Shown: in pieces, positions 24,836-48,383 of the stretch | Numbering within the stretch: position 1 is the stretch's first letter | How the letters are laid out: each line of letters opens with the position of its first letter | Assembly: GCA_949300325.1 (NCBI GenBank) | Contig: CASGDQ010000049.1 | Location: 1-64,000 of the forward strand | From: an uncultured Spirochaetales bacterium | GTDB taxonomy: Bacteria; Spirochaetota; Spirochaetia; Sphaerochaetales; Sphaerochaetaceae | Length of the DNA: 64,000 nucleotides | Direction: 5' to 3' | The notes under the pieces: generated by a model | Told to the model about the DNA's origin: nothing | Database searches by the model: none | Seen by the model: only the letters and a program-made list of their open reading frames with translations | Position numbers and translations under genes: made by a program

Positions 24836-24860
24836 AGGTATCCAGCGGATACCTTTTTTT
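24836..24860 (+). terminator. Rho-independent terminator of tRNA-Pro
   Basis: AGGTATCC (24836-24843), loop AGC, GGATACCT, then seven T. The T-run touches the stop of the convergent heparinase-family gene. Confidence 0.9.
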
Positions 24861-28933: not shown

Positions 28934-29086
28934 AATTTTGGATTTTACCACACCTATTTGAAAAAAAATCCGATAATTGTTATTTTTCCTGATTTCCGGC
29001 TTTTTGCTGATGAACGGAAAAAAGACGATTTACAACTGAAAAAACGGGAATTTAGACTGATTCTGGACTCAAAAGGAGGATTCAGG

Positions 29087-30022: not shown

Positions 30023-30033
30023 GGAGGTGTAAA

Positions 30034-30951: not shown

Positions 30952-30968
30952 TGAAGGAGGATTATATT

Positions 30969-32579: not shown

Positions 32580-32585
32580 TCCAAA

Positions 32586-32606
32586 GGGGGCTTCGGCCCC
32601 CTGTTT
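32586..32606 (+). other. Intercistronic GC hairpin with UUCG loop
   Basis: GGGGGC-TTCG-GCCCCC immediately after the binding-protein stop and before the first sulfatase, followed by only TGTTT. It probably protects the upstream message or partly terminates, keeping binding protein above enzymes. Confidence 0.7.
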
Positions 32607-32616
32607 CAGGCGGTAT

Positions 32617-33990
32617 ATGAAAAGAAAAAACCTTTTATACATTTTTGCCGACCAGTGGAGATACCATGCTGTCGGCTGTTCTCATGAAGATCCGGTGAAA
32701 ACTCCGAATATGGATGAATTTTCCGCCGAAAGCCTTATCTGTGACAATGCAATCAGCACATATCCCTTATGCTCCCCGCATAGAGCTGCGCTTTTGACCG
32801 GCAAGCATCCGCTTAACTGCAGGATGTGGACCAACTGCAAGATAGGATTGAAGGACATATTAATGCTTTTCCCGCAAGAAAAGCTGATCAGCGATGTCCT
32901 TTATGAAAACGGCTATGATACATCCTATATAGGGAAGTGGCATCTTGATGCAAGCGAGCTTAATTTCGATCCCGCTCCCGCATCCGGAGCTAAGAACTGG
33001 GATGCCTATACGCCTAGGGGAGAAAGGAGGCATCACTTTAATTTCTGGCATTCCTATGGAGCTATGGACGAGCATCTCGATCCTCATTATTGGGAGGATT
33101 GCCCAGCTCAGATAAAACCGGGCAAATGGTCTGTGGAGCATGAAACCGATGTTCTTTTATCGCATCTTGATGAGAGCAGAAATGATTCTCCTTTTTGTGC
33201 ATTCCTTTCATGGAATCCTCCGCACCCGCCATATGATCAGGTGCCTGAAAAGTATCTCGAGCTCTATCCTGAGGGCTGCCAGGATTTCAGGCCCAATGTT
33301 CCCCCTGAAATGGCAAATGATCCTTCCTACCGTTTGAAATGGCGCCAGTATTTTGCCGCTGTAAGCGGTTTGGATGAGCAATTCGGGCGCATCATTTCCT
33401 ATCTCAAGAGAAAAGGCCTTTATGATGATACTTTGATAATCCTTTCTGCAGATCATGGTGATTGCATGGGGTCCCACGGGCTTTATGGAAAGAATGTGTG
33501 GTATGAGGAATCCATAAGGATCCCGCTCATAATCCACGGCTGCGGGGTAAAAAGCGGAAGAAGCGATACGCTTTTGGTGAGCGCGGACCATATGCCTACG
33601 ATCTTGGAGCTGCTTGGCATTGAAATACCTGCAACTGTCGATGGAATAAGCCATGCCGATGTCCTCAGGGGAAATACTGAAGCAGCCATGCGCGACGATT
33701 GTTTCTTATGCATGGTTCCCGGAATGCCGGAGCTTGTAAAGCGTTATGAGCGCTTGGGCCTTAATAACAGGGCTTTTGGCTGGAGAGGTGTGCGCGATAA
33801 AAGATATACATATGTCGTCGATAATGGAACCGATCCCCAGGCAGAACAGAAGAGATACCTCTATGACAATCTCGAGGATCCTTATCAGATGGAGCCTAGA
33901 GTGTTGGAAAAGGATGATGAGGTATGCAGAAAGTATGATAAGCTTTTGTTGAAGCATATGGCTGAGAACAACGATCCGTTCGCTTTATAG
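32617..33990 (+). CDS. Sulfatase (Cys-type), first of three
   Basis: 457 aa. The start at ATG 32617 begins the fold directly (MKRKNLLYIFADQWRYHAVG); the upstream extension of the frame overlaps the binding-protein gene and is spurious. Catalytic motif CSPHR (C52) is followed by AALLTGK: the Cys must become formylglycine, which in anaerobes needs anSME, not encoded here. Metal ligands are seen in ADQ (D12) and SADHGDCMGSHGLYGKN. No signal peptide, so it acts on imported sulfated sugars. The exact sulfate position cannot be read. Confidence 0.9.
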   Translation: MKRKNLLYIFADQWRYHAVGCSHEDPVKTPNMDEFSAESLICDNAISTYPLCSPHRAALLTGKHPLNCRMWTNCKIGLKDILMLFPQEKLISDVLYENGYDTSYIGKWHLDASELNFDPAPASGAKNWDAYTPRGERRHHFNFWHSYGAMDEHLDPHYWEDCPAQIKPGKWSVEHETDVLLSHLDESRNDSPFCAFLSWNPPHPPYDQVPEKYLELYPEGCQDFRPNVPPEMANDPSYRLKWRQYFAAVSGLDEQFGRIISYLKRKGLYDDTLIILSADHGDCMGSHGLYGKNVWYEESIRIPLIIHGCGVKSGRSDTLLVSADHMPTILELLGIEIPATVDGISHADVLRGNTEAAMRDDCFLCMVPGMPELVKRYERLGLNNRAFGWRGVRDKRYTYVVDNGTDPQAEQKRYLYDNLEDPYQMEPRVLEKDDEVCRKYDKLLLKHMAENNDPFAL

Positions 33991-33998
33991 GAGGATTT

Positions 33999-35165
33999 AT
34001 GCTTGATTTGGAAAAACTTGCCGATCTCGATTCTGCAGCATTGAATGATGCTGAGAAATATGCGCTTATGCAGACAACTTCCTGTCTTGATAGGTTCACC
34101 AATTTTTTCAAGTATTCCCATGCTGAAAATGGATTCTATCCTCAAAGTGAGAATGTCGAATGGACTACGGGGTTCTGGACCGGGCAGTTATGGCTATGCT
34201 ATGAATTGAGCGGGGATGAGAAATTCCGGAAAGCAGCTGAATGCCAGGTGGATTCGTTTTATAAGAGGATAATCGAAAAAATTGATGTGGAGCATCATGA
34301 CATGGGCTTTCTTTATTCGCCTTCCTGTGTTGCTGCTTATAAGCTTACTGGAAATGAAACCGGCCGGAAGGCTGCTCTGCTGGCTGCTGACAACCTCGTT
34401 TCAAGATTCCAGCAAAAGGGTGGATTCATACAGGCCTGGGGACCGCTGGGAGCTGAAGACAATTATCGTCTCATAATAGATTGCCTGCTTAATCTTCCGC
34501 TTCTTTTCTGGGCCACAGAGGAAACAGGGGATGGCCATTATGCTGAAATTGCAAAAAAACATCTTGAAACAGCATTGAAGCTCGTTCTAAGAAGCGATGA
34601 TTCCACATACCATACCTATTATTTCGATAAAACTACAGGAGAACCGCTTCGGGGCGTCACTGCACAGGGAAACAGGGATGGTTCAGCTTGGGCAAGAGGA
34701 CAGGCGTGGGGCGTATATGGCTCCGCTTTGGCCTACAGATATCTTAAAAACGATAAGTCGATGGATGTTTTCAACCGGACAACCGGCTACTTCCTTTCCC
34801 ATCTTCCCGATGATGTTATTCCATATTGGGATTTTGATTTCACAAACCCCAGCACAGAGCCGCGCGATTCCTCAGCTCTTGCGATCACAATCTGCGGCAT
34901 GCTTGAAGCATCCAGATGGACAAACGGAGAAAAGTCTGTCTTGCTCAGGCAAGAGGCCGGAAAGCTTTTCAGGCAGCTTTATGAGAGATGTGCGGTTACA
35001 GATCCCCAGGTATCAGACGGCCTTCTGCTTCATGGAACCTACGCTAGAAAGAGCAAATGGAACACCTGCCGCAATCGCGGTGTGGATGAATGCAATATCT
35101 GGGGGGATTATTATTATCTGGAGGCCCTTGTCCGTCTGAAGAAGGATTGGGACCCATATTGGTGA
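33999..35165 (+). CDS. GH88 unsaturated glucuronyl hydrolase
   Basis: 388 aa (alpha/alpha)6-barrel enzyme that removes the 4,5-unsaturated uronic acid left by polysaccharide lyases. The two catalytic Asp are in place: D101 in EHHDMGFLYSP and D161 in LIIDCLLNLPLLFW, 60 residues apart as in characterised enzymes (D88/D149). WTTGFWTGQLWLCYEL and WARGQAWGVYGSAL are also family blocks. Ribosome site AGGAGG. It lies between sulfatases and acts after the heparinase-type lyase; it has no signal peptide, so it is cytosolic. Confidence 0.93.
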   Translation: MLDLEKLADLDSAALNDAEKYALMQTTSCLDRFTNFFKYSHAENGFYPQSENVEWTTGFWTGQLWLCYELSGDEKFRKAAECQVDSFYKRIIEKIDVEHHDMGFLYSPSCVAAYKLTGNETGRKAALLAADNLVSRFQQKGGFIQAWGPLGAEDNYRLIIDCLLNLPLLFWATEETGDGHYAEIAKKHLETALKLVLRSDDSTYHTYYFDKTTGEPLRGVTAQGNRDGSAWARGQAWGVYGSALAYRYLKNDKSMDVFNRTTGYFLSHLPDDVIPYWDFDFTNPSTEPRDSSALAITICGMLEASRWTNGEKSVLLRQEAGKLFRQLYERCAVTDPQVSDGLLLHGTYARKSKWNTCRNRGVDECNIWGDYYYLEALVRLKKDWDPYW

Positions 35166-35170
35166 TTGCA

Positions 35171-36577
35171 ATGGAAAAAAAGAACATACTCATATTCGTT
35201 TTGGATCAGCTTGCCTGGCGTGCCTTGGATATCCATGGCGGGTTTGCCGCTGCTCCGAACATCGCGAAACTGGCACAAGACGGGGTGGATGTGGATGAAT
35301 GCTATTGTCCCTATCCGCTATGCCAGCCGTCCAGGGCTTCGTTTTGGACCGGTAAATTCTCGCATCGCAACAGGGTGTGGTCAAATGGCCGCAAATGGAA
35401 AATAACGGAAATCGGCGAGGATGTGCCGACGCTAGGATCCGTATTTTCCGAGCATGGCTATCAAACCATGCATTTCGGAAAGAAGCATGATGGCGGTGCG
35501 CTCCGAGGTTTTTGGTGCGATGAGGAGAAGGAAAAATGGATTGCCGATGAAAATCCGGCCTTTCCTTTCAATATGGATACATATGCCGATGCGTATACTG
35601 TTGAAAGGAGCGTGGACTATCTTTCATCCTATTCGTATGAGAAACCTCTTATGATGGTGGTTGATTTGATCAATCCTCATAACATCTGCGGCTGGATCGG
35701 CAAAAACCGCGGGGTGCATGATGATGTGCCTTTTTCGGGAGCGCTGCCAGAATTGCCTCCGAATTACCATTTTGATGATATTGCCAACAGGCCTATTCCA
35801 GTCCAATATCTCTGCTGCTCTCATGTCAGGCAATCACAGACTGTCGGATGGACGGATATGAATTTCAGGCATTATCTTGCCGCTTATTCGTATTACCTTG
35901 GAATAGCGGACTCTTATATCGGAAGGGTTCTGGAGGCTTTGGATAAAAGCGGTGGCCGGGATGATACGCTTATCGTCCTTTTTTCCGATCATGGAGATAA
36001 TATCACGAGCCGGCAATCGGTAACCAAGCAGGTCACGCTCTATGAGGAGGTTGTGCGGGTGCCGCTGATTTTCTCCGGATGCAAAGTAGGACGGAAAGGG
36101 GTGCATGTCAAAGGGCTAGCTTCCCTTCTCGATCTTTTTCCCACTCTCTGCTCTTATGCCTCCATTCCTGTTCCAGAGGGCTTGGATGGCATGGATATCT
36201 CATCGATCTTCAGCTCTGGAGATATCCCAAAAAGGGAATATGTTGAAAGCGAATGGTTTACAGAATGGGGCTATACAATATCTCCCGGCCGCATGATCAG
36301 AAGCGGACAATGGAAGTATATCCGTTATCTTGAAGGAGATGGGGAGGAACTTTATGATCTGCAGCATGATCCTTATGAGATGAGAAACCTTGCCGGGGTA
36401 GCCGAATATTTTGCAAAAAAGGAAATGATGCGCGCCCTTCTTGCCAAGCATCTAGATAAGACGGATGACCCGTTTTTGTCTTTGAATTGGAAGGCTTCGC
36501 CCAAATGGCGCAGCCATGAGCTCGGCTACCAGTGCCACAGGGGCATAACAGCACCTGAAGATACGGAGGAACAGTAA
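35171..36577 (+). CDS. Sulfatase (Cys-type), second of three
   Basis: 468 aa. Start at ATG 35171, 5 bases after the GH88 stop; the frame upstream overlaps GH88 and is discarded. N-terminus MEKKNILIFVLDQLAWRALD; formylglycine motif CQPSR (C51) followed by ASFWTGK; distal metal motif VLFSDHGDNITSRQSVTKQV. The product is cytosolic and differs from its neighbours around the substrate loops, suggesting that each of the three removes a different sulfate. Its TAA overlaps the next ATG by one base. Confidence 0.9.
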   Translation: MEKKNILIFVLDQLAWRALDIHGGFAAAPNIAKLAQDGVDVDECYCPYPLCQPSRASFWTGKFSHRNRVWSNGRKWKITEIGEDVPTLGSVFSEHGYQTMHFGKKHDGGALRGFWCDEEKEKWIADENPAFPFNMDTYADAYTVERSVDYLSSYSYEKPLMMVVDLINPHNICGWIGKNRGVHDDVPFSGALPELPPNYHFDDIANRPIPVQYLCCSHVRQSQTVGWTDMNFRHYLAAYSYYLGIADSYIGRVLEALDKSGGRDDTLIVLFSDHGDNITSRQSVTKQVTLYEEVVRVPLIFSGCKVGRKGVHVKGLASLLDLFPTLCSYASIPVPEGLDGMDISSIFSSGDIPKREYVESEWFTEWGYTISPGRMIRSGQWKYIRYLEGDGEELYDLQHDPYEMRNLAGVAEYFAKKEMMRALLAKHLDKTDDPFLSLNWKASPKWRSHELGYQCHRGITAPEDTEEQ

Positions 36578-38094
36578 TGGAAAAAAAGAGACAGTTCGTT
36601 CTCATTATGACGGACACGACCAGAAAGGATATGCTGGGCTGTTATGGGGATGATAGGATGAAGACCCCGAATCTGGACCGTTTGGCTTTTCAGGGGCTCA
36701 GATATGAGAATGCCTATACCTGCCAGCCCGTATGCGGTCCTGCCAGATCCGCAATATTCAGCGGAACATTTCCTCATTCGAACGGGGTTTTCACCAACTG
36801 CGTACCATTCGGGGATAATGTCAAAACAATAGGGCAAAGGCTTCGTGATCACGGCATAAGGACTGCGTATGTCGGCAAGTGGCATCTTGATGGAGGGGAT
36901 TATTTCGGTCTTGGACGATGCCCTGACGGATGGGATGACGAGTACTGGTATGATATGCACCGCTATCTGGAAGAGCTTTCGGATGAGGATAGGATGCGCT
37001 CAAGGAAATCTGCTACCGCCTATGATCCTAGCTGGACGGAGGATATGTGCTATGCGCATAGATGTGCTGATCGTGCAAGAAGTTTTATTGAGCATCATCA
37101 CTGCGAGGATTTCTTTTTCACATTGAGCCTTGACGAGCCGCATGGCCCCTGTGTTTGTCCAGCTCCGTTCAATCATATGTATGACGGGTTCAGCTTTTCT
37201 GACGATCCTGTGTTCCATGACGATCTTGAAAACAAGCCTGCCATGCAGAGGCTCTGGGCGGGGGAGGCGATAAATGAGGATCCTGCCAAATTGCATAAGA
37301 GCTCTGATATGCTTTCCCTCTTTTTGGGTGCAAACAGTTTCGCCGATTATGAGATTGGGCGTTTTATCGAGAAGGTTGATGAGCTTTGCCCCGATGCGCT
37401 TGTGATGTTCACCTCCGATCATGGGGACATGCTTGGAGCCCATCGCCTTCAAGGCAAGAATGCAGCATTCTATAAAGAGATTACCAATATTCCTCTTATT
37501 ATCCGTAATGGAAAATCCGGATCAAGGGGAGTGGTGGAGCATCCTTCATCCCATATCGATATAGCACCGACTGTTTTGGACTACTTTGGAATTCCAGTGC
37601 CGAAGCTTTTTGAAGGAAAATCCATGCTTGAGCAGATAAAGGATCCCCAAAAGGCTGTAAACAGGCATGTCTTTACCGAGTTTACCAGGTATGAGGTGGA
37701 TCATGACGGCTTTGGAGGCTTGCAGATGATGAGGGCCGTAACCGATGGCAGATATAAGCTATCTATCAACCTCATGGACAGCGATGAGCTTTATGATATC
37801 AAGACTGATCCGTCGGAAACCGTTAACCTCATAGAGGATATTAGATATGAAGATATCAGAAACAGCCTGCATGATGTGTTGCTTAAGCATATGGACGAGA
37901 CTCGGGATCCTTTCAGGGGATATCAGTGGGCCGTCCGTCCTTGGCGTAAGGATTTGGTGCCGAAATGGAATAATTCAGGCTGCACAAGGCAGCGTGAGAA
38001 CGAGGAATACGAGCCTAGGCAATGGGATTACGATACAGGATTGCCAATGAAGGAAGCTGTTAGGGGCAAAAAACTCTACGATGAAAAGAAATAG
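36577..38094 (+). CDS. Sulfatase (Cys-type), third of three
   Basis: 505 aa. Starts at ATG 36577 (TAATG overlap). N-terminus MEKKRQFVLIMTDTTRKDML, formylglycine motif CGPAR (C53) then SAIFSGT, YVGKWHLDGGDYFGLG, and metal motif MFTSDHGDMLGAHRLQGKNA. The C-terminus RDPFRGYQWAVRPWRKDL resembles iduronate/N-acetylglucosamine sulfatase relatives, but I cannot fix the substrate. Last gene of the operon; no terminator with a clear T-run follows on this strand. Confidence 0.9.
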   Translation: MEKKRQFVLIMTDTTRKDMLGCYGDDRMKTPNLDRLAFQGLRYENAYTCQPVCGPARSAIFSGTFPHSNGVFTNCVPFGDNVKTIGQRLRDHGIRTAYVGKWHLDGGDYFGLGRCPDGWDDEYWYDMHRYLEELSDEDRMRSRKSATAYDPSWTEDMCYAHRCADRARSFIEHHHCEDFFFTLSLDEPHGPCVCPAPFNHMYDGFSFSDDPVFHDDLENKPAMQRLWAGEAINEDPAKLHKSSDMLSLFLGANSFADYEIGRFIEKVDELCPDALVMFTSDHGDMLGAHRLQGKNAAFYKEITNIPLIIRNGKSGSRGVVEHPSSHIDIAPTVLDYFGIPVPKLFEGKSMLEQIKDPQKAVNRHVFTEFTRYEVDHDGFGGLQMMRAVTDGRYKLSINLMDSDELYDIKTDPSETVNLIEDIRYEDIRNSLHDVLLKHMDETRDPFRGYQWAVRPWRKDLVPKWNNSGCTRQRENEEYEPRQWDYDTGLPMKEAVRGKKLYDEKK

Positions 38095-38148: not shown

Positions 38149-38262
38149 AGACCACGACGGCTGGGTCTCATCCATCGTGGTCATCCTGCATTACGCCTTA
38201 TAGGCAATAAGATTCAGGAGGGGTAATATAAGCTTGCTATCCTGTTTGCACTTATATTACAA
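38149..38262 (+). ncRNA. Candidate structured small RNA
   Basis: In the 328-base gap 38095-38422 with no convincing gene, a predicted start is followed by hairpin A (GACCACGACGG 38150-38160 with CCATCGTGGTC 38172-38182, one mismatch), a short GCCTTATAGGC fold, an AGGAGGGG tract, and hairpin B (GTAATATAAG 38223-38232 with CTTATATTAC 38251-38260). On the minus strand hairpin A is followed by TTTTTAT, so an antisense RNA could end there. It may be a free small RNA, a type I toxin-antitoxin remnant, or a leader. Confidence 0.4.
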
Positions 38263-38422
38263 TATATCGTTGTGTGTTTTATATGAAGAATTCGGGTAGT
38301 TTTTATCCGTATTCAAAAAAAAGTTGACAAATCCCTAAAGTCGCAAAATACTAATAATACTATTAATGATACCACTGATATTATCAGAGGTTGTTCTTAA
38401 GACATTATTCTGGAGGTTTGTC

Positions 38423-39385
38423 ATGACAAAAAAAGAACGGGTAGTATCTGCAATTAATAAAATGGATGTGGACTACGTTCCTTGCGGATTCTCACTTCAT
38501 TTTCCTTCCTGCTGCAACAGTGGCGATGCCGGCGTCAAGGCTCATGTGGATTTTTTCAAGGAATCGGAAGCCGATATCTATAAAATAATGAATGAGAACC
38601 TTGTTCCGACTCCCGGAAAGGGTGTGCATTTCCCTGAGGCTTACAAGCAGGTGAAGTCTTTTGATCTCAAGACTCCGTTCATTCGTGAGCAGGTGGATTT
38701 CACAAAGAAGATTCTGGATGCATGCGATGGCGAAGGCTTTACGATGGGTACGCTTCATGGAATCTGTGCCTCTGCGCTCCATCCGATTGAAAAGAGCGGT
38801 GTGGACTATGATACTGCCAGACAGCTTCAGCTTGACAGCCTCAGAACGGATGAAGCTGTGACATTGGATGCTTTCAAGCGTATTGCCGATGGCATGTGCG
38901 CGTTGGTGGAGGGCTATAAGGAAGCTGGGGTGGACTCAATTTATTATGCTGCACTCGGAGCCGAGCATAGATATCTGACGGCAGAGGAATTCGAGAAGTG
39001 GTTCAAGCCCTTCGATCTCCAGATCATGAAAGCCATCAAGGACAACGGCATGTATTGCTTCCTGCATATCTGCAAGGACGGCCTTGATATGGCTCGCTAT
39101 GCCGGATATGGAAAATATGCGGATGTCGTCAACTGGGGTGTCTACGAGGCTCCTTATTCCTTGGAAGAAGGAAGAAAGCTTTTTGAGGGATGCACGATAA
39201 TGGGCGGCCTTAAGAACAGAAGCGGAGTTCTTGTGGATGGTACAGATGAGGAGATCAGAAACGAGGTGCATTCCGTCATCTCTTCCTTTGGAAAGAAAGG
39301 ATTTATTCTTGGAGCCGACTGCACTCTCGCCACAGAGCAGGATATGCATAAGCTGAGGACGGCAGTCGAGGCCTGCAGAAGCTGA
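38423..39385 (+). CDS. Uroporphyrinogen-decarboxylase-superfamily protein, MtaA/CmuA-like methyltransferase
   Basis: 320 aa. Start at ATG 38423 after TGGAGG. Superfamily URO-D, but it carries the zinc site of corrinoid/thiol methyltransferases: H215-x-C217 (FLHICKDG) and C300 (GADCTLAT), ligands that true HemE lacks. It is therefore more likely a methyl-transfer enzyme than a haem-pathway decarboxylase. No corrinoid protein is encoded next to it. It heads an operon with a cysteine-desulfidase-family protein, a sugar importer and an FGGY kinase; its substrate is unknown. Confidence 0.78.
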   Translation: MTKKERVVSAINKMDVDYVPCGFSLHFPSCCNSGDAGVKAHVDFFKESEADIYKIMNENLVPTPGKGVHFPEAYKQVKSFDLKTPFIREQVDFTKKILDACDGEGFTMGTLHGICASALHPIEKSGVDYDTARQLQLDSLRTDEAVTLDAFKRIADGMCALVEGYKEAGVDSIYYAALGAEHRYLTAEEFEKWFKPFDLQIMKAIKDNGMYCFLHICKDGLDMARYAGYGKYADVVNWGVYEAPYSLEEGRKLFEGCTIMGGLKNRSGVLVDGTDEEIRNEVHSVISSFGKKGFILGADCTLATEQDMHKLRTAVEACRS

Positions 39386-39398
39386 AAAAGGTCTAACT

Positions 39399-40667
39399 AT
39401 GGTTAACGAAGAAAAATATATAAGCATCTTGAAAGAAGAACTTGTTCCCGCTTTGGGATGTACGGAGCCTATCGCACTGGCCCTGGCCGGAGCTAAATGC
39501 CGGCAGCTGCTGGGCTCAGAGGCCGAGAGGATAGAGGTGGGCTGCAGCGGAAACATCATAAAGAATGTCAAGGCTGTCGTCGTCCCGAACTGCGGAGGCC
39601 TGAAAGGTATCGAGGCTGCTGTGGCTGTTGGAATGCTTGCAGGAAATGCCGATGCCGATTTGGAAGTCCTTACTAAGGTGACAGAAGAGGATGTTGTCCG
39701 CGTGAAAGCTTATCTGAAAAAGAAGGCTGTGAAGGTCGAGCATATCGACACGGAAGCCAAGCTGGAGATAGCGGTGAGGATGTTTGCCGGCGGACATGAG
39801 GCTTATGTCCGCTTGTTGAACAAGCATACCAATTTCGTCGATATGAGCAAGGATGGCAAGGTGCTGTTTCATAAGGATGAGGCGCCGGCGCTCGAGAGCG
39901 CATCTTTGACAGACAGAAGTTTTTTGACTGTGGATGGAATTGTGGATTTTGCTGAGAATGTCGATATCAGCCTTATTGAACCCACCATTTCCGTTCAGAT
40001 CGAGAATAACATCCGTATCTGCAATGAAGGGCTGGAAAACGATTGGGGTGCATCTGTTGGAAAGACAGTGCTTTCCGGCGGCATGTACGGCTTCATGGGA
40101 CGTGCAGAGGCGCTGGCGGCAGCCGGTTCGGATGCCAGGATGAGCGGATGCAGCATGCCGGTTGTCATAAACAGCGGCAGCGGCAACCAGGGGATCACCG
40201 TATCCATTCCGGTAATAGAGTATGCCAGAGAGCATAATGTTCCGGAAGAAAAGCTTATCAGGGCTCTGGCGTTGAGCAACCTCCTTGCAATACATCAGAA
40301 AACCGAAATCGGAATTCTTTCCGCCTATTGCGGAGTAGTCTGCGCCGCCTGTGGAGCAGGGGCTGCGGTGACATGGCTTGCCGGAGGCAATAGAAAGCAG
40401 ATCGAGGAGACGGTTGTGAATACTTTGGCAACCATTTCAGGAATGGTCTGTGACGGTGCAAAACCATCATGTGCCGGAAAAATCGCCGTTGCTGTCAATG
40501 CCGCCATGATTGCCCATAAGATGGCAATGTCCAACAAGAGCTACCATTCCGGAGAGGGTCTTGTGAAGGATGACGTGGAAAAGACGATCTCCACGATCGG
40601 AACCCTTGCCAGCGTCGGGATGAAGGATACGGATAATGTGATCCTCAACCAGATGTTGGAGGACTGA
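39399..40667 (+). CDS. L-cysteine desulfidase / serine dehydratase-alpha family protein (CyuA-like)
   Basis: 422 aa member of the UPF0597/CyuA family (E. coli 436). These oxygen-sensitive [4Fe-4S] enzymes split cysteine to sulfide, ammonia and pyruvate, or deaminate serine. The signature ALGCTEPIALALAG (C21) and the C-terminal Cys set (SAYCGVVCAACGAG, MVCDGAKPSCAGKIA) are conserved. It begins 13 bases after the methyltransferase-like gene. Co-transcription with sugar transport genes is unusual; sulfide production or amino-sugar-acid deamination are possible reasons. Confidence 0.82.
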   Translation: MVNEEKYISILKEELVPALGCTEPIALALAGAKCRQLLGSEAERIEVGCSGNIIKNVKAVVVPNCGGLKGIEAAVAVGMLAGNADADLEVLTKVTEEDVVRVKAYLKKKAVKVEHIDTEAKLEIAVRMFAGGHEAYVRLLNKHTNFVDMSKDGKVLFHKDEAPALESASLTDRSFLTVDGIVDFAENVDISLIEPTISVQIENNIRICNEGLENDWGASVGKTVLSGGMYGFMGRAEALAAAGSDARMSGCSMPVVINSGSGNQGITVSIPVIEYAREHNVPEEKLIRALALSNLLAIHQKTEIGILSAYCGVVCAACGAGAAVTWLAGGNRKQIEETVVNTLATISGMVCDGAKPSCAGKIAVAVNAAMIAHKMAMSNKSYHSGEGLVKDDVEKTISTIGTLASVGMKDTDNVILNQMLED

Positions 40668-40720
40668 AATAGGTTAAAACCTTTTTTCCATATAGAGGGT
40701 GGAAGAGGGAAAAAAACTTA

Positions 40721-40757
40721 AAAGGAGAGCCGAGTCCTCTACTCGGGAAAAACTATG
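40721..40757 (+). promoter_or_regulatory. Ribosome site separated from the start codon by a hairpin
   Basis: AAAGGAG (40721-40727) is 27 bases before ATG 40755. Between them CCGAGT-CCTCT-ACTCGG folds into a 6-pair hairpin that would shorten the effective distance to about 10 bases. An alternative pairing AGGA/TCCT would hide the ribosome site. Confidence 0.45.
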
Positions 40758-42104
40758 AAGAAGTTTTTGACAATTTTATTGGTTTGCCTTCTGGCGTTTG
40801 CTCCGATTTTTGCAAACGGTTCCAAAGAGAGTGCGGCTGCCGACGATGGCACTTATCCTGCAGGAGATCTTGTTATCTGGTCTACTGGACAGCCTCAGTA
40901 CAGGCAGATGTATTATCAGGGATTCCTCGATAGGAATCAGGATATCGCTTCTGGTGTGAAGCTTTCTGTTGAAACGATTGCCACGATGGCTGACGGACAG
41001 CAGAAGATAGCAATGTATTCCATGTCCGGGGATCAGGATTCTCTTCCTGAAGTGATCATGCTTGATGCTGTCGGCATCATCGAGCTTGCAAATGCCGGAC
41101 TTCTGCTCGACTTGACCGACTACTATGCTCCTCAGGCAGATAAGTATGTTGATGGTGCAGTCAACGATTCGACTGTTAATGGAAAGGTTTATGGTCTTCC
41201 AGATGCAGTCCGCCCGCAGGTTCTGTTCTATAATGCAGAGATTTTCGAGAAGTATGATGTGGATCCTGCTATGATGAGCACTTTTGATGGATATCTCGAA
41301 GCAGGAAGGCTTTTGAAGGAGAGAAGCAACGGAGAGGTTTACCTTTCATGGATCGACCCGACAAGCTACACCTGGAGATATTGGGGCAGAAGAGGTCTTA
41401 TGCCGCAGGCTGGAGCAAGGATCTGGGATGAGGAAGGCAACGTCGTCATCGGTTCCGATGAAGGGACAAAGCTTGCTCTCGGATATCTTGATACTCTTTA
41501 TTCCGAAGGCCTTCTTTATAAGACCAACATGATGCAGCAGCCGATCTACGAGGCTACCGACGATGGCAAGATCGCCACATTCTACATCGGCGCATTCTGG
41601 GATGAATTCCTCAGGAAGAACCTTACCGCTACAGCTGGAGACTGGAGAGTCATGAATGCTCCTGTATTCGAGGGAATCGGCACTGGCGGAGCCCCTGTCA
41701 GCACATATTTCTGCCTTGTTGATACAGGCAGCAACGAGTATGTAGGACTTATCGAGGACCTCTGGTATGATTTCCAGAACAATGTCGAAGAGATCAATGC
41801 CTGGGTAACGGAAATGGAAGCTATCAACGGCGCATACAGCAACCCGGTCAGCAAGGCGACCCTCGCAGATCCGTTCTGGCAGGCACCAAGCGATTTCTAT
41901 GGCGGACAGTCCTTCAGAAAGGCTGAGAGCGACGGCTTGAACAATCCTTCAAAGAACATGACCGTTACTCCGCAGGATGCAGAGGCCGATCTCATCATCA
42001 GTGCAGAAATAGAGAAGTATGTTGCTGGTGAGCAGACCATGGATCAGGCGATTGCGAATATGGACAAGGAGCTTAAGCTTAAGATTGGCAAGGCTGATGT
42101 CTGA
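40755..42104 (+). CDS. Sugar ABC transporter substrate-binding protein
   Basis: 449 aa family-1 solute-binding protein. Signal peptide MKKFLTILLVCLLAFAPIFA with mature end NGSKESAA, no lipobox Cys. Binding-protein blocks include LPEVIMLDAVGIIELANAGL, GKVYGLPDAVRPQVLFYNAE and KYDVDPAMMSTFDGYLEAGR. It serves the two permeases that follow. The ligand is unknown; the context (FGGY-type protein, CyuA-like and MtaA-like enzymes) does not match a standard sugar pathway. Confidence 0.9.
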   Translation: MKKFLTILLVCLLAFAPIFANGSKESAAADDGTYPAGDLVIWSTGQPQYRQMYYQGFLDRNQDIASGVKLSVETIATMADGQQKIAMYSMSGDQDSLPEVIMLDAVGIIELANAGLLLDLTDYYAPQADKYVDGAVNDSTVNGKVYGLPDAVRPQVLFYNAEIFEKYDVDPAMMSTFDGYLEAGRLLKERSNGEVYLSWIDPTSYTWRYWGRRGLMPQAGARIWDEEGNVVIGSDEGTKLALGYLDTLYSEGLLYKTNMMQQPIYEATDDGKIATFYIGAFWDEFLRKNLTATAGDWRVMNAPVFEGIGTGGAPVSTYFCLVDTGSNEYVGLIEDLWYDFQNNVEEINAWVTEMEAINGAYSNPVSKATLADPFWQAPSDFYGGQSFRKAESDGLNNPSKNMTVTPQDAEADLIISAEIEKYVAGEQTMDQAIANMDKELKLKIGKADV

Positions 42105-42115
42105 TTGATTTTATT

Positions 42116-42137
42116 GCTCCCATCTTCGGATGGGAGC
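42116..42137 (+). other. Intercistronic hairpin with UUCG loop
   Basis: GCTCCCATC-TTCG-GATGGGAGC, 9 perfect pairs, between the binding-protein stop and the permease start, without a T-run. Same position and loop as at 32586, so probably an mRNA stabiliser. Confidence 0.7.
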
Positions 42138-42159
42138 TTGGAACGAGGGGAGGCAATGC

Positions 42160-43038
42160 ATGAAGAAATTTGTGAAAACTTTGAAAAAGTATAGGGCGCC
42201 ATATATTTTCATCTGCCCATTTTTCATCCTGTTCTTCATCTTCCAGTTGGTTCCGGTTATTTTTACCGGATATATCAGTTTCACCGAGTGGAACGGCTTG
42301 AAGACCCCGAAATGGGTCGGACTTAACAACTATAAGATAATGTTCCAGGATTACATGTTCAAAGATGCGTTTTGGAACAATGTTTTTTATTGGGTATGGG
42401 CTGTCGTAGGCATTTTGTTTTTTGCCCTTCTGATAGCTACATGCATAAATAGTCCCCATATTAAATGCAAAAGGACTTTTCAAACGATAACCTTCCTGCC
42501 TTATGTATGTGCAAGTGTTGCCATGGGCCTTATCTTCATGATGCTCTTTGATGAGAATGCGGGCCTGATCAATGAATTCATTGTGGCAATGGGAGGAAGC
42601 AGGATACCATGGCTATCGAGCAGCAAGTATGCAAAAATACCGGTTATAATCCTCTTTATCTGGAGGAGCATACCCTGGTTTACGATAATCATCTATTCCG
42701 GATTGCTCAACATCAGCAAGGAATATTATGAAGCGGCGACCGTTGACGGCGCATCGCCTTTCCAGCAGTTCAGGCTCATAACAATTCCGCTTTTGAAGAA
42801 CATCCTCTTTTTCTGTGCTCTCACAATTACTATCGACATTTGGAAGATGTTCAATGAATCCTATACATTGTCCGGACCTGGATCGAGCAACACCTCGCTT
42901 TTCCAGCTGGTATACGAATACGGATTCAAGACATTCAAGCTCGGCTATGCCTCCTCCATCAGCGTCGTACTTATCCTTGTTCTCCTCGTGATTTCAATGG
43001 TTCAGTACAGGATGAGAAGGAACGATGGCGAAGTATAA
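42160..43038 (+). CDS. Sugar ABC transporter permease
   Basis: 292 aa. Start at ATG 42160 after GGGGAGG. MalF/UgpA type: APYIFICPFFILFFIFQLVP, ISFTEWNGLKTP, six membrane spans, EAA loop YYEAATVDGASPFQQFRLIT. It is followed after 10 bases by the second permease. Works with the 40755 binding protein and an ATPase from elsewhere. Confidence 0.92.
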   Translation: MKKFVKTLKKYRAPYIFICPFFILFFIFQLVPVIFTGYISFTEWNGLKTPKWVGLNNYKIMFQDYMFKDAFWNNVFYWVWAVVGILFFALLIATCINSPHIKCKRTFQTITFLPYVCASVAMGLIFMMLFDENAGLINEFIVAMGGSRIPWLSSSKYAKIPVIILFIWRSIPWFTIIIYSGLLNISKEYYEAATVDGASPFQQFRLITIPLLKNILFFCALTITIDIWKMFNESYTLSGPGSSNTSLFQLVYEYGFKTFKLGYASSISVVLILVLLVISMVQYRMRRNDGEV

Positions 43039-43048
43039 GGGGGTAGGT

Positions 43049-43888
43049 ATGAAAATCAAGAAACAAGGTTTTGGACAGACGCTTGCGGTTAACATCTTCA
43101 TGATCATCGTAGTCCTCGTATGTCTTTTCCCGGTATTGTGGATGTGCATGATCTCCATAAAGAGCGTGGGCGAAAAGGTCTCTGGTTTCAATGCCCTTAC
43201 CGTTGCAAATCCGACGCTTAGCAATTTCTCCAGGCTCTTCGAGCTCATTCCTGTATGGCAGAACCTGTACAACAGCGCTTTCACGACAATTATCGGAACC
43301 ATCACAACGCTGTTCTTCTGTGCATTGGCTGGTTTTGCTTTTGCAAAATACAGATTCCCGGGCAGGAACAAGCTTTTCGCTTTCGTGATCGCAACGATGG
43401 CCATCAGCGCCGAAGCAGGTGCGATTCCGCTCTTTGTGATCATGAGAAAGCTCAATCTCATCAACAGCCTGTGGTCCCTGATAATCCCAAGGATTGCGAC
43501 TGCAGTCGGAATCTTTTATCTGCGCCAGTACATGCTTGACGTTCCCGATGAGCTTGTTGAGGCGGCAAGAATAGACGGATGCAAGGAATTTGGAATCTTC
43601 ATCCGCGTCATCTGTCCTGTCATCAAGCCGGCTCTGGCATCCTGGGCGTCTCTGACGATGATCGCAAGATGGAACGATTATTTCTGGCCGCTGCTTTTCT
43701 TGAACAAGAACAGCAAGTATACGTTGATGGTGTCGGTTTCGATGCTTCCTGTCAGCGATGGCCTTGCAACTCCGTGGCAGGTTATTCTTGCTGGATGTAC
43801 GCTCGTAATCGTGCCAGCCATAATTCTTTATCTCATCATGCAGCTCATGCAGAAATCCGGAAGTTTCGCCGGTGCTGTCAAGGGTTGA
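43049..43888 (+). CDS. Sugar ABC transporter permease
   Basis: 279 aa. I place the start at ATG 43049 (GGGGGTAGG just upstream); ATG 43025 would overlap the previous gene by 14 bases. MalG type: LVCLFPVLWMCMISIKSVGE, EAA loop ELVEAARIDGCKEFGIFIRV, C-terminal SGSFAGAVKG. Completes the importer of the 38.4-45.5 kb cluster. Confidence 0.92.
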   Translation: MKIKKQGFGQTLAVNIFMIIVVLVCLFPVLWMCMISIKSVGEKVSGFNALTVANPTLSNFSRLFELIPVWQNLYNSAFTTIIGTITTLFFCALAGFAFAKYRFPGRNKLFAFVIATMAISAEAGAIPLFVIMRKLNLINSLWSLIIPRIATAVGIFYLRQYMLDVPDELVEAARIDGCKEFGIFIRVICPVIKPALASWASLTMIARWNDYFWPLLFLNKNSKYTLMVSVSMLPVSDGLATPWQVILAGCTLVIVPAIILYLIMQLMQKSGSFAGAVKG

Positions 43889-43908
43889 TCCCAAAGCTGC
43901 ATATCCAG

Positions 43909-43940
43909 GCCTGCTCCTTGTTTGGATGCAGGCTTTTTTT
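43909..43940 (+). terminator. Rho-independent terminator after the importer
   Basis: GCCTGC (43909-43914) pairs with GCAGGC (43928-43933) across a 13-base loop, then seven T. It separates the importer from the kinase-like gene, which may have its own promoter or be reached by readthrough. Confidence 0.65.
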
Positions 43941-44074
43941 GTGATCTGAAAGATGGCAAGTCCATATTTTCCAGCTTTCCGTTTCCCTTATTGACCGGAG
44001 GCCATGCATGACCTTGCTTTGTTTTTAAAGTTTTTTTTATTGAAGTTTGCACATTTAGGGTGGACAATCAGTAT

Positions 44075-45454
44075 ATGAGATACTTATCAGTTGATTTAGG
44101 AGCATCCAACGGCAAGGTGCTTGCCGGAGAGCTTCGCAATGGCAAGCTATGCTATGAAACCGTTTATCGCTTTAAGAACAACATGGTCAGACAGGACGGA
44201 TGTCTATGTTGGAATCTGCCCGAGCTCTTTTCAAACATCCTTGAGGGGCTGAAGAGAGCCGGAAAGGCCGATTATGTCTCCCTTGAGTGCTGGGGTGCTG
44301 ATTTCGTTCTTCTGGATGATGGGGATCAGATCATAACCCCTGCGGTAAGCTATCTTGATGCACGTTCGGACAGGGTCGGCATACCTTATGACAAGAAGGA
44401 CCTTTATTTCAAGACGGGCTGCCATGACCAGAAATGGAATACCGTCAACCAGCTTTTGTCTATCGTTGAGGAGAGCCCGGAGGTCCTTGACAGGGCTGCA
44501 CGGCTGATGTTCATTCCAGATTATCTGAATTATCTGCTTACGGGAGTCAAGGCGACAGAAAAGAGCATTGCATATACTTCCGCCCTCATAGATTATAAGA
44601 CGGGAGAATGGGACTTCCGCTTTATAGATTCGCTAGGGATTCCTGTGCGTCTTTTTTCTGAGATATCCGAACCCGGAAGAGTTCTTGGAATAGTGACCGA
44701 TGCGGTTGCAAGGGAAATAGGGTATACCCCAGCAGTGCTCATGGCCTCTTCCTACGAGGGCTCTGCTTCCATCTACGCTTCCCCCTGCCAGGATGGGCCT
44801 GTTATGCTTTCGCTTGGCGGATTCTCGCGCTTGGCGATGCTGACCGATGATGCGATTGTTTCCGGCATGGGATATGAGGAAAACATCTCCAACTGCCCGA
44901 CGTATGCCGGCTGCAACGTGTTTTTCAAAAGGATACCTGCCTTGATCCTTCTGCAGCGGCTCAAAGATGAGTTCAAGGAAGGCACAAGCTATGATGAGAT
45001 CGAGAACCTTGCAAAGAAGGAGACGGCCTTTTCCGGCCTAATCGATATATTCGATTTGAGATTGATCCAGGGCGGAAAGATCAGCGCAGCAGTAGATACG
45101 CTTCTTTCTGAAGCCGGCCTCGAAGCCTGCAAGAGCTTGGAGGAGACTGCGGCTGTGATTTATTATTCGCTTGCATCCGCCTATGCCTCCCAGATTGCGA
45201 AGATGGAGGCTGTCACCGGAGCAGAAGTCAAGGAAATAAATATCACAGGCGGCGGAAGCAAGGATATGTTCCTCTGTTCTTTGATCGCCATGTATACCAA
45301 GAAGAAAGTTGTAGCCGGTCCGGTGGATGCGGTTGCGCTTGGAAATCTGATCATCTCCATGGCCGCTACGGGAAGCCTTAATCTTTCAGAGCGCCACGAG
45401 CTTCTTCTTTCCTCGTTCTGTTATACGACCTATCGAAGGAGCGAAGGCGTATAG
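44075..45454 (+). CDS. Rhamnulokinase homologue with altered catalytic residues
   Basis: 459 aa FGGY-family protein, colinear with RhaB at 17210-18577 (MRYLSVDLGASNGKVLAGEL; CWGADFVLLD; GGGSKDMFL; VALGN). The catalytic centre differs: RhaB GHDT (D228) is SYEG here, with Glu at 228, and the phosphate loop SSGTW is SLGGF (about 246-250); SYRDART is SYLDARS. It may be a pseudokinase, a sensor, or a kinase with changed chemistry. The start ATG 44075 has AGGGTGG upstream; GTG 44060 is an alternative. A strong terminator follows. Confidence 0.82.
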   Translation: MRYLSVDLGASNGKVLAGELRNGKLCYETVYRFKNNMVRQDGCLCWNLPELFSNILEGLKRAGKADYVSLECWGADFVLLDDGDQIITPAVSYLDARSDRVGIPYDKKDLYFKTGCHDQKWNTVNQLLSIVEESPEVLDRAARLMFIPDYLNYLLTGVKATEKSIAYTSALIDYKTGEWDFRFIDSLGIPVRLFSEISEPGRVLGIVTDAVAREIGYTPAVLMASSYEGSASIYASPCQDGPVMLSLGGFSRLAMLTDDAIVSGMGYEENISNCPTYAGCNVFFKRIPALILLQRLKDEFKEGTSYDEIENLAKKETAFSGLIDIFDLRLIQGGKISAAVDTLLSEAGLEACKSLEETAAVIYYSLASAYASQIAKMEAVTGAEVKEINITGGGSKDMFLCSLIAMYTKKKVVAGPVDAVALGNLIISMAATGSLNLSERHELLLSSFCYTTYRRSEGV

Positions 45455-45564: not shown

Positions 45565-45942
45565 GTGAAAAACTATAATACTCAGCAGAAGAATGCTCTT
45601 TTGGATTTTTTAAAGAAACGCAACGGAGCATATGTTTCAATAAATGAAATCAGCGGATGTTTGGATCTGTTGGCAAAAAGCACTCTCTACAGGCTGCTTG
45701 GCAGGTTGGAGGAGGAAGGAGTGCTGGAAAGCGCGATGGTGGGAGGAAACAAATGCTATGCATACCGTCCTGCCGAATGCCATGCTCATCTGCATATGAC
45801 ATGCTCTGTATGCGGAAGGTGCATACATCTGGATGAAAAGGAAAGCTTAAAGCTGAAAGACAGCCTTCTTGATGCTACGGGCTTTGAGCTGGACCTTTTT
45901 TCCTCAGTCCTTTTTGGCGTATGTAAGGAGTGCAGGACATGA
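45565..45942 (+). CDS. zur: Fur-family zinc regulator
   Basis: 125 aa. Winged-helix DNA-binding half (ISGCLDLLAKSTLYRLLGRL at about 29-48) and a dimer/metal half with two CxxC pairs (C80/C83 and C120/C123) for structural zinc and the HAHLH cluster (H73-H77) for sensing. Directly upstream of and overlapping znuA, so a zinc uptake repressor is the best reading. It starts with GTG and has no ribosome site; the predicted promoter would start transcripts almost at the GTG, so a leaderless message is possible. Confidence 0.85.
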   Translation: MKNYNTQQKNALLDFLKKRNGAYVSINEISGCLDLLAKSTLYRLLGRLEEEGVLESAMVGGNKCYAYRPAECHAHLHMTCSVCGRCIHLDEKESLKLKDSLLDATGFELDLFSSVLFGVCKECRT

Positions 45943-46871
45943 AAAGATTGGTTTTGATCCTTTTAGCTTCCATTCTGATCCTTTTTTCCTCCTGCAGCAG
46001 AAAAGAGCTTCTTGATGCCGACGGGCTTGTGATCACTGCTGTGAATTTTCCATGCTATGATGCAGCCCGGGCGATTGCCGGAGATAGGGCGGATATCCGC
46101 ATGCTCCTTCCTGCGGGGGCTGAAAGCCACAGCTATGAGCCGAGTCCTGAGGATATAGTACGGATACTGTCATCCGATCTGTTCATATATACAGGAGGAG
46201 AAAGCGACTATTGGGTTGAAAGCCTTTTGAGGGATCTGGATGGAAAAGTGAAGACATTTTCCCTTATCGAACATGCTCCGATGGTATTTTATGAGAGCGA
46301 GGTCGACTTTCTGCAGCAGGAGGAAGAAGAGCAGGAGGATGGAGTCTTTGATGAGCATGTATGGACATCCCTTTCTAATGAGATCGCCATAATCAAAGCC
46401 TTATGCGAAACCATGTGCGGCCTTGATAAGGATAATGCCTCCTTTTTTGAAGAGAATTGCAATGCCTATGTTGTTAAGCTTGAAGATCTGAAAGACGGGT
46501 TTTCAAGCCTGTTCAGCGAAGTAGGCCATCCTGAGATGGTGGTCGCTGACCGTTTCCCTCTGATCTATTTCGTCAGCGAGTTCGATCTTCCTTATCTTGC
46601 CGCATTTCCCGGCTGTGCCAATGAGAGCGAACCGGGGGCGAAAACCGTTGCTTTCATTATCGATAAGGTGAAGGATGAGAAAATCGGCTGCATTTTCCAT
46701 ATGGAGCTTGCCAATACCATGCTTGCCGAGCTGATAGCAGAAGAAACGGGGGCAAAAGTCTATCAGTTCAACAGCTGCCATAACGTATCCAAGCGGCAAT
46801 TCGATAAGGGGATCACCTATGTCGATTTGATGCAGGAAAACCTTGAGACTTTAAGGGAGGCCTATTTATGA
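45939..46871 (+). CDS. znuA: Zinc ABC transporter substrate-binding lipoprotein
   Basis: 310 aa cluster-A1 metal-binding protein. Lipobox LFSSC (C19). First ligand region AESHSYEPSPEDIV and second DEHVWTSLSNEIAI are present; the C-terminal half has FNSCHNVSKRQFDKGITYVD. The usual His-rich loop is replaced by an acidic run of Glu/Asp (QQEEEEQEDGVFDEH). Overlaps zur by 4 bases and znuC by 4 bases. Zinc is inferred from the Zur linkage; manganese cannot be excluded. Confidence 0.88.
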   Translation: MKRLVLILLASILILFSSCSRKELLDADGLVITAVNFPCYDAARAIAGDRADIRMLLPAGAESHSYEPSPEDIVRILSSDLFIYTGGESDYWVESLLRDLDGKVKTFSLIEHAPMVFYESEVDFLQQEEEEQEDGVFDEHVWTSLSNEIAIIKALCETMCGLDKDNASFFEENCNAYVVKLEDLKDGFSSLFSEVGHPEMVVADRFPLIYFVSEFDLPYLAAFPGCANESEPGAKTVAFIIDKVKDEKIGCIFHMELANTMLAELIAEETGAKVYQFNSCHNVSKRQFDKGITYVDLMQENLETLREAYL

Positions 46872-47578
46872 GCATTCTGATAAAGGGGGATGATCTCAGC
46901 CTCGGCTATGAGGGCAAAAGCGTTGCAGACGGGATTTCCTTTGAAATATCAGAAGGGGATTACCTTTGCATCCTCGGGGAAAACGGCGCCGGCAAAAGCA
47001 CTCTTGTAAAAGCCATTCTCGGCTTGCATGCTCCGCTTTCAGGAACGATTTCTTATGGAGCTGGTTTTTCCAACAGGGAAATAGGGTATTTGGCGCAGCA
47101 GACCATGGTGCAGCAAAGCTTTCCAGCCTCGGTGGAAGAGGTTGTTTTAAGCGGGATGGTGAATCGTCTTGGAAAGAGGTTTTATTATTCCAGGAGCCAG
47201 AAAAATGAAGCCTTTGGCAATCTTAGGAAGATGGGAGTGGAGGATTTGAGGAAAAAGTCCTTCCAGGAGCTTTCCGGCGGGCAGATGCAGAGGGTGCTTC
47301 TTGCACGGGCGTTGTGCGCCGCAGGCAAGGTGCTTCTTCTGGATGAGCCGGTTTCCGGCTTGGATCCGCATACCTCCAGCGGTCTTTATTCGATAGTGGA
47401 CAGGCTCAATAGCGAGGGCATGACAATAATCATGGTCACACATGACATACATCCCGCTTTGAACAGCGCGAGCCATGTACTATATCTTGGCAGAGGTTTT
47501 TTCTTTGGCAGGAAGGATGAATATTTTGCATCCGAGACGGGAAGAAGGTTTTTGAAGGAGGCGGGACATCATGATTGA
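46868..47578 (+). CDS. znuC: Zinc ABC transporter ATPase
   Basis: 236 aa cytosolic ATPase. Walker A GENGAGKST, signature LSGGQMQRVLLARAL, Walker B VLLLDEP, H-loop VTHDIH: all canonical. Overlaps znuA by 4 and znuB by 8 bases. Confidence 0.93.
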   Translation: MSILIKGDDLSLGYEGKSVADGISFEISEGDYLCILGENGAGKSTLVKAILGLHAPLSGTISYGAGFSNREIGYLAQQTMVQQSFPASVEEVVLSGMVNRLGKRFYYSRSQKNEAFGNLRKMGVEDLRKKSFQELSGGQMQRVLLARALCAAGKVLLLDEPVSGLDPHTSSGLYSIVDRLNSEGMTIIMVTHDIHPALNSASHVLYLGRGFFFGRKDEYFASETGRRFLKEAGHHD

Positions 47579-48383
47579 AATGCTTTCCTATCCGTTCATG
47601 CAGAGGGCGTTCGTGGTAGGCCTGCTTGTCTCTGTATGCGCATCCCTTCTAGGGGTGTCTTTAGTGCTCAGACGTTTTTCGATGATTGGCGACGGGCTTT
47701 CCCATGTAGGCTTCGGAGCTCTTTCCATAGCTTCTGTTTTGGGGCTTTCTCCTCTTGGGTTCACTATTCCGATTGTAGTATTTTCTGCCATCCTGCTTTT
47801 AAGGATGAATGGCAGGAAGGGAATATCCAGCGATAGCGCGATTGCATTGATAAGCGCATCTTCCCTGGCTTTGGGAGTGATGATGATATCCTTTGTAAAA
47901 GGAACGAATACGGATATAAACAATTTCCTTTTCGGCTCCCTGCTTGCCGTGGGCAAAAGCGATGCTGTCTTTTCCGTAATACTCTCTTTTGTGGTGATAT
48001 TATGCTACATATTGCTTTACCCGCGTCTTTTTGCAGTCACTTTTGATCCTGTCTTCTCCAGAGCAGGCGGATTGAAAAGCGAAAGGTATACGATGCTCTT
48101 GGCCATTCTTTCTGCTCTTACGATCGTTCTTGGGATGAGGATGCTGGGCTCCCTGCTCATCAGTGCTCTTATAATCTTTCCTCCTCTTACTTCAATGAGG
48201 GTGTTCAAGACATATAAGGCAGTGACTTTTTCAAGTGCTCTGACAGCTGCGCTTTCTTTTATTATCGGAATAAGCATCTCGTTTTTCGAAGGAACTCCCG
48301 TAGGGGCTTCCATAGTCATGGTGAATCTTGGCTTTTTCCTTCTCTTCTCACTTGCAGGATTCGTTTTGAAGAGGAACCGTTAA
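47571..48383 (+). CDS. znuB: Zinc ABC transporter permease
   Basis: 270 aa inner-membrane protein of the ABC-3 family with about eight hydrophobic segments; FMQRAFVVGLLVSVCASLLG, RRFSMIGDGLSHVGFGALSI and FPPLTSMRVFKTYKAVTFSS are family blocks. Last gene of zur-znuABC; ends overlapping the convergent yaaA by 4 bases. Confidence 0.92.
   Translation: MIEMLSYPFMQRAFVVGLLVSVCASLLGVSLVLRRFSMIGDGLSHVGFGALSIASVLGLSPLGFTIPIVVFSAILLLRMNGRKGISSDSAIALISASSLALGVMMISFVKGTNTDINNFLFGSLLAVGKSDAVFSVILSFVVILCYILLYPRLFAVTFDPVFSRAGGLKSERYTMLLAILSALTIVLGMRMLGSLLISALIIFPPLTSMRVFKTYKAVTFSSALTAALSFIIGISISFFEGTPVGASIVMVNLGFFLLFSLAGFVLKRNR

Follow-up and report, generated by a model that had tools for sequence, protein, structure and literature searches.

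The DNA considered here is a 64,000-nucleotide stretch (the window) of contig CASGDQ010000049.1 from an uncultured Spirochaetales bacterium, whose genome (G000, 2.3 Mb, 86% complete) has gut spirochaete assemblies (uncultured Spirochaetales, Candidatus Ornithospirochaeta) as its closest relatives. Six co-directional open reading frames are present on its forward strand at 38423–45454, as the initial annotation had described. The first five (38423–43888) encode a UroD-superfamily zinc enzyme, a CyuA-type L-cysteine desulfidase and three components of an ATP-binding cassette (ABC) importer, and are predicted to constitute a separate cassette seated inside another locus. The view that UroD and CyuA belong to a putative co-regulated gene set is well supported by comparison of related loci. 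As the best overall explanation, we tentatively favor an arrangement in which the importer would supply a substrate from which the UroD enzyme frees cysteine, CyuA would degrade that cysteine, and an FCD-GntR regulator would control the genes.

The pairing of the two enzymes is conserved in two phyla. Among 62 UroD loci from Spirochaetota and Lachnospiraceae, picked independently of CyuA, 33 contain a CyuA gene in the same orientation no more than 12 kb away. The chance expectation is one or two loci, given that CyuA occurs once to a few times per 2–5 Mb genome (binomial P = 1e-33, which is indicative only, as the loci are related and the counts are not independent). The UroD protein itself is encoded by 29 of the 139 genomes in the order; among 397 genomes sampled from the family of a Lachnospiraceae carrier, a profile (E 1e-60) recovered it in 27. 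Parablautia muri, a culturable Lachnospiraceae species, carries its UroD gene in L015 and has CyuA at another place in the genome. The importer recurs as well. Relatives of the window's binding protein with at least 56% identity are present in 14 genomes, every one of which also has the UroD gene, lying next to it in those loci that were read; the order UroD–SBP–permease–permease(–CyuA) is repeated in Lachnospiraceae (L145–L148); and UroD and SBP2 similarities between loci correlate (rho 0.72, 15 loci). The co-occurrence across genomes that the initial annotation proposed to look for is thus present far above chance. It extends to UroD, CyuA and the importer and does not include the rhamnulokinase, the last of the six families that had been grouped together, as the genome G069 discussed below indicates.

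A common palindrome, TGATAWTATCA, was seen in the sequences upstream of UroD. It was counted in the loci and in the window. Across 1.58 Mb of loci, the exact form TGATA-N-TATCA occurs 32 times against 2.6 expected, and most copies lie directly 5' of UroD, its paralogue UroD11, OppB/PepT, CyuA or FCD genes. With one mismatch allowed, the palindrome precedes 25 of 72 UroD genes and 41 of 1169 other genes (Fisher P = 3e-16; because the palindrome was first recognized in some of these loci, the test is not fully independent), and many of these 41 are themselves module genes. The OppB/PepT and CyuA genes marked by the palindrome played no part in defining it. FCD-GntR regulators are encoded in 35 of 66 loci, and we infer that a regulator of this type probably acts on the TGATAWTATCA site. 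In the window, the operator-like palindrome TGATATTATCA (38376–38386, forward strand) is the sole exact copy. It is situated 47 bp 5' of the UroD start, between that start and a promoter-like site, TTGACA-17-AATACT, found by consensus scan at 38324–38352 on the forward strand. The latter is weak by itself, and promoter-like sites across the region are no more numerous than expected; the TTGACAAAT hexamer region is kept 5' of UroD in L004–L006, L046–L048 and others.

The five genes end at an intrinsic terminator, GGCCTGCTCC...GGATGCAGGC followed by T7 (~43908–43940, forward strand), identified from sequence and fold. This hairpin is also kept in L004, and was missed by a pattern scan of the region. 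A terminator had been noted initially ahead of the last gene, and its place between genes 5 and 6 agrees with that description. Conversely, the proposal that all six genes form one operon has to be abandoned, because genes 1–5 have their own promoter-like site, palindrome and terminator, and because an ortholog of the gene 6 kinase stands beside sulfatases in G069, a genome of the same genus. There (L088), a binding protein is followed by sulfatase 1, GH88, sulfatase 2, sulfatase 3 and then the kinase, which is 79% identical to that of gene 6; the last two genes are 205 bp apart, with none of the UroD, CyuA and importer genes in between. Homology between the window and G069 ends on the left side at ~38313 and starts again at ~44033, in the kinase leader. 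Since sulfatase and kinase are neighbors in G069 with no cassette between them, gene 6 is assigned to the upstream sulfatase/GH88 locus, of which it is predicted to be a part. The cassette also occurs in unrelated surroundings (L005, L006, L048, L046, L145–L148), which favors a presumed insertion here over its loss in G069. No direct repeats of 9 or more bases were found at the cassette ends, and in the window no exact palindrome lies 5' of the kinase or the sulfatases.

Gene 2 (39399–40667, forward strand) encodes an SDH_alpha/CyuA protein, a predicted [4Fe-4S] L-cysteine desulfidase, and among solved structures it is closest to the L-cysteine desulfidases 9he0 and 9fsl (E 5e-22), so that the family named at the outset was correct. 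The CyuA dyad C21/E23 and the cluster ligands C311, C351 and C358 are invariant in 55 of 55 sequences. The counterparts of this Cys/Glu dyad have been reported to be essential for cysteine desulfuration, with the three cysteines binding the cluster (PMC12647591). The predicted active site of gene 2 is that of a cysteine enzyme.

Gene 1 (38423–39385, forward strand) encodes a zinc enzyme that belongs to the UroD superfamily by both profile (Pfam URO-D PF01208, 3.5e-16) and predicted fold. Its AlphaFold model (pLDDT 90.8) aligns with UroD structures at Z about 30, with MtaA (4ay7) at Z 29 and an rmsd of 2.9 over 299 residues at 15% identity, and with MetE at Z about 19–21. By residue number, the conserved polar residues are located at the C-terminal ends of the barrel strands. 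The HxC...C zinc motif that had been recognized in the translation is indeed present as H215-x-C217...C300. All three residues are invariant in 37 of 37 close relatives and 7 of 7 paralogues, and 73 of 76 sequences of a wider set match the motif. Such a His-Cys-Cys ligand set has been associated with sulfur and selenium substrates (PMC10418091).

The MtaA-like fold had suggested a corrinoid methyltransferase, an assignment that now appears unlikely. The gene scores 40.3 bits against the MtaA/CmuA model TIGR01463, below its cut-off of 235.4. The B12-binding domain PF02310 is absent from all seven genus genomes examined (G000, G061, G047, G055, G065, G056 and G041; controls positive in 12 of 14), which makes MtaA-type chemistry unlikely in this genus; G061, which has the same locus as G000, is 96% complete. 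Moreover, no corrinoid or Ram gene is found in the annotated loci. The same seven genomes give no match to MetE (Meth_synt_2), and methylene-tetrahydrofolate (methylene-THF) reductase is missing from nine genus genomes, with positive controls; no methyl-folate donor is therefore expected, and methyl-folate was rejected as either donor or acceptor. A role as a general methionine synthase was likewise rejected, as UroD is missing from most genomes of the order (present in 29 of 139) and so is not a core gene. The UroD protein is probably a corrinoid-independent thiol/thioether enzyme.

The importer genes encode a binding protein (gene 3, SBP_bac_1, Pfam 1.2e-14; 40755–42104) and two permeases assigned by family profiles to the MalF/UgpA type (gene 4, 42160–43038) and the MalG/UgpE type (gene 5, 43025–43888), all on the forward strand, in line with the sugar importer originally described. 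The cassette contains no ATPase gene for it. The best sequence matches of the binding protein in the PDB are diverse sugar binders (2e-15); its predicted structure was poor (pLDDT 40), and no conclusion on the ligand was drawn from it. In other loci, the UroD–CyuA pair is served by importers of oligopeptide, branched-chain amino-acid (L052, L054, L155) or sugar type, and the usual hydrolases are dipeptidases and tripeptidases. Some sister loci combine an oligopeptide (Opp) importer with two peptidases that score above curated cut-offs, the tripeptidase PepT and a dipeptidase of the Sapep/PepV type. L061–L069 have another binding protein and an M20 dipeptidase-like protein, an amidohydrolase is encoded in L070, L155 and L158, and in L110 CyuA is accompanied by a Dpp importer and a pair of the hydantoinase/oxoprolinase type. 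Often a further, divergent UroD paralogue lies nearby, with its zinc site retained. In L089 (7222–8850; G076, another genus), a 542-amino-acid protein without a match in Pfam, NCBIfam or PDB sequences is encoded between the importer permeases and CyuA; it is possibly a clue to the substrate.

We propose that the cassette is a mobile, co-regulated five-gene unit for uptake and catabolism. The ABC importer would take up a cysteine-derived compound, and the zinc UroD enzyme, working with neither a corrinoid nor a methyl-folate partner, would act on the sulfur of this compound; most likely it would take off or transfer the S-substituent, leaving a free cysteine thiol. CyuA would then split the freed cysteine to pyruvate, ammonia and sulfide. 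In the sister loci, peptidases would first trim an imported peptide. Because CyuA needs a free thiol and sister loci hold peptidases and peptide importers, this is the simplest reading, although the substrate and the UroD reaction are inferences. A zinc thiol enzyme lacking corrinoid and folate can act on sulfur that belongs to the substrate itself. A broader and still more guarded suggestion is that the set represents an anaerobic pathway not described before: a corrinoid-independent zinc UroD enzyme would cleave or dealkylate S-substituted cysteine, coming from imported conjugates or peptides, and would feed a [4Fe-4S] desulfidase, within a conserved regulon common to gut Spirochaetota and Lachnospiraceae.

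Several observations weigh against this proposal. Corrinoid-free dealkylation of a neutral thioether is chemically demanding. The cassette of the window comes with an importer of the sugar type and lacks a peptidase; in relatives, the same importer precedes cellobiose-2-epimerase-like and GH130 genes (L005, L006 and L048) or a sulfatase (L046 and L047), neighbors that would suit a substrate with a sugar moiety more readily than a peptide. A sugar-bearing conjugate is therefore a possible substrate for this importer. The coupling of the two enzymes is also incomplete: no CyuA was found in the stretch read for 29 of the 62 UroD loci (some of them cut by contig ends), G000 has a single CyuA for two close UroD genes, and many CyuA genes stand apart from any UroD. 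In addition, no acetyltransferase of the Bacillus subtilis type was seen among the annotated locus neighbors.

The scavenging of methyl-sulfur or methyl-selenium compounds, which we regard as doubtful, would have UroD move the methyl group of S- or Se-methyl-cysteine (or of methylselenol) to a thiol acceptor, for example homocysteine, with CyuA releasing sulfide or selenide. The His-Cys-Cys site and a relationship to Mlp proteins, which have been connected with the use of methyl-selenide (PMC10418091), are consistent with this, as are the acceptance of selenocysteine by CyuA (PMC12647591) and the occurrence of SelD in 10 of 11 genomes tested, including G000; another methionine route would also be useful to a genus with neither MetE nor a B12-binding MetH. 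However, G115 has the module and no SelD match, the corrinoid carrier is absent, and the several transport systems per genome together with a regulated-looking promoter suggest catabolism rather than trace-element salvage. The initial annotation had raised a methylated or sulfur-containing sugar as the possible substrate; in such a pathway, UroD and CyuA would act on the imported sugar, alone or together with the neighboring sulfatases and kinase. The annotation's premise that uptake is linked to desulfuration and zinc-thiol chemistry is borne out by a conserved, apparently co-regulated gene set. The sugar part stands on weaker ground and appears rather unlikely: the carbohydrate-type importer family and the epimerase-like, GH130 and sulfatase neighbors just mentioned speak for it, but the pair is widely associated with peptide or amino-acid importers and peptidases, the window's kinase and sulfatases lie outside the cassette, and the CyuA active site belongs to a cysteine enzyme.

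Corrinoid-dependent demethylation as in MtaA and Mlp, using free or imported cobalamin, would account for the resemblance of fold and zinc site to 4ay7. We consider it improbable in view of the missing PF02310 domain, the lack of corrinoid and Ram genes in the annotated loci and the low score against the MtaA/CmuA model. Equally improbable is a co-location for sulfur supply, with CyuA providing sulfide or a [4Fe-5S] donor and UroD methylating or alkylating sulfide or cysteine as a detoxification. CyuA can pass sulfur to other enzymes (PMC12647591), yet the importers, the peptidases and the palindrome that these have in common with the pair would be left unexplained.

The cysteine-freeing pathway that we favor can be compared with several known systems. 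Like the Type 1 mlp gene clusters described by Kountz and Balskus (PMC10418091), the loci encode UroD-superfamily proteins of anaerobes with a His-Cys-Cys zinc site, two paralogues being present in some of them. Unlike those clusters, the cassette has no corrinoid or Ram protein and only ~15% identity to MtaA, and contains CyuA and ABC importers instead. Cysteine fermentation by CyuA/CyuP in Escherichia coli (PMC9040844) and the CyuA of Methanococcus maripaludis (PMC12647591) share the combination of a CyuA-family desulfidase with an importer, and the same catalytic dyad and cluster cysteines, whereas here the importer is of the ABC type, and a zinc UroD enzyme is added along with, in sister loci, hydrolases. 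The S-alkylcysteine and S-(2-succino)cysteine loci of B. subtilis (CmoO/CmoJ, YxeK/2SL) consist of an importer, an M20 hydrolase and a C–S cleaving enzyme, and the pathways are oxygen-dependent or lyase-based (PMC10863075, PMC9706529, PMC12757645); loci related to yxe follow the same scheme. The general logic of importer, M20-family hydrolase and cysteine-freeing enzyme is similar, but the M20 proteins here are dipeptidases and tripeptidases, UroD takes the place of the C–S cleaving enzyme, and CyuA would destroy the cysteine. Of the parts of such salvage loci (scm/yxe, ytn), among the annotated neighbors neither an acetyltransferase nor a C–S cleaving flavin monooxygenase, a 2SL lyase or an N-acetylcysteine deacetylase was found, with some neighbors unannotated and the genomes not searched. 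Cobalamin-independent methionine synthase (MetE) is likewise a corrinoid-free zinc thiol enzyme with a (beta/alpha)8 fold and belongs to the same superfamily; in contrast to MetE, the UroD protein has a single domain of 320 amino acids and is encoded in a genome with no methylene-THF reductase. We found no description of the UroD–CyuA pair or of the palindrome in the literature covered, which did not extend to subscription papers.

UroD-superfamily proteins, which abound in anaerobes, usually carry the annotation uroporphyrinogen decarboxylase or corrinoid methyltransferase. The present loci point to a large subgroup, in organisms apparently lacking corrinoid machinery, that is tied to CyuA by gene order and a common palindrome. 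If the proposed pathway is correct, it would offer gut bacteria an oxygen-free route for degrading sulfur-bearing conjugates to sulfide, and the enzyme could be tested on a short list of candidate substrates.

Several features around the cassette were also noted. The region 24859–38094 encodes a heparinase II/III-type lyase, an AraC regulator, an ABC importer, three sulfatases and a GH88 enzyme, and is predicted to be a locus for a sulfated uronic-acid polysaccharide, to which the kinase of gene 6 (44060–45454, forward strand) belongs. This kinase is an FGGY enzyme resembling rhamnulokinase and L-fuculokinase (FucK, PDB 4c23, 2.7e-52); its score of 284.8 bits against the RhaB model TIGR02627, below the cut-off of 527.95, accords with its earlier description as an altered rhamnulokinase. 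A structured intergenic element at 38150–38260, 3' of sulfatase 3, comprises a hairpin whose pairing is kept despite base changes in G069, followed by about 50 near-invariant bases with the inverted repeat TAATATAAG...CTTATATTA. It has a folding z-score of −2.5, occurs once in the genome, and reaches the gathering score of no Rfam family. In L096, L103 and L054, CyuA adjoins dihydroxyacetone-kinase (DhaK/DhaL) genes and branched-chain-type importers. Directly downstream of the kinase, at 45565–48383, lies an operon encoding a FUR-family regulator and a ZnuACB-type zinc importer, which is ordinary in itself, yet close to a cassette that encodes a zinc enzyme.

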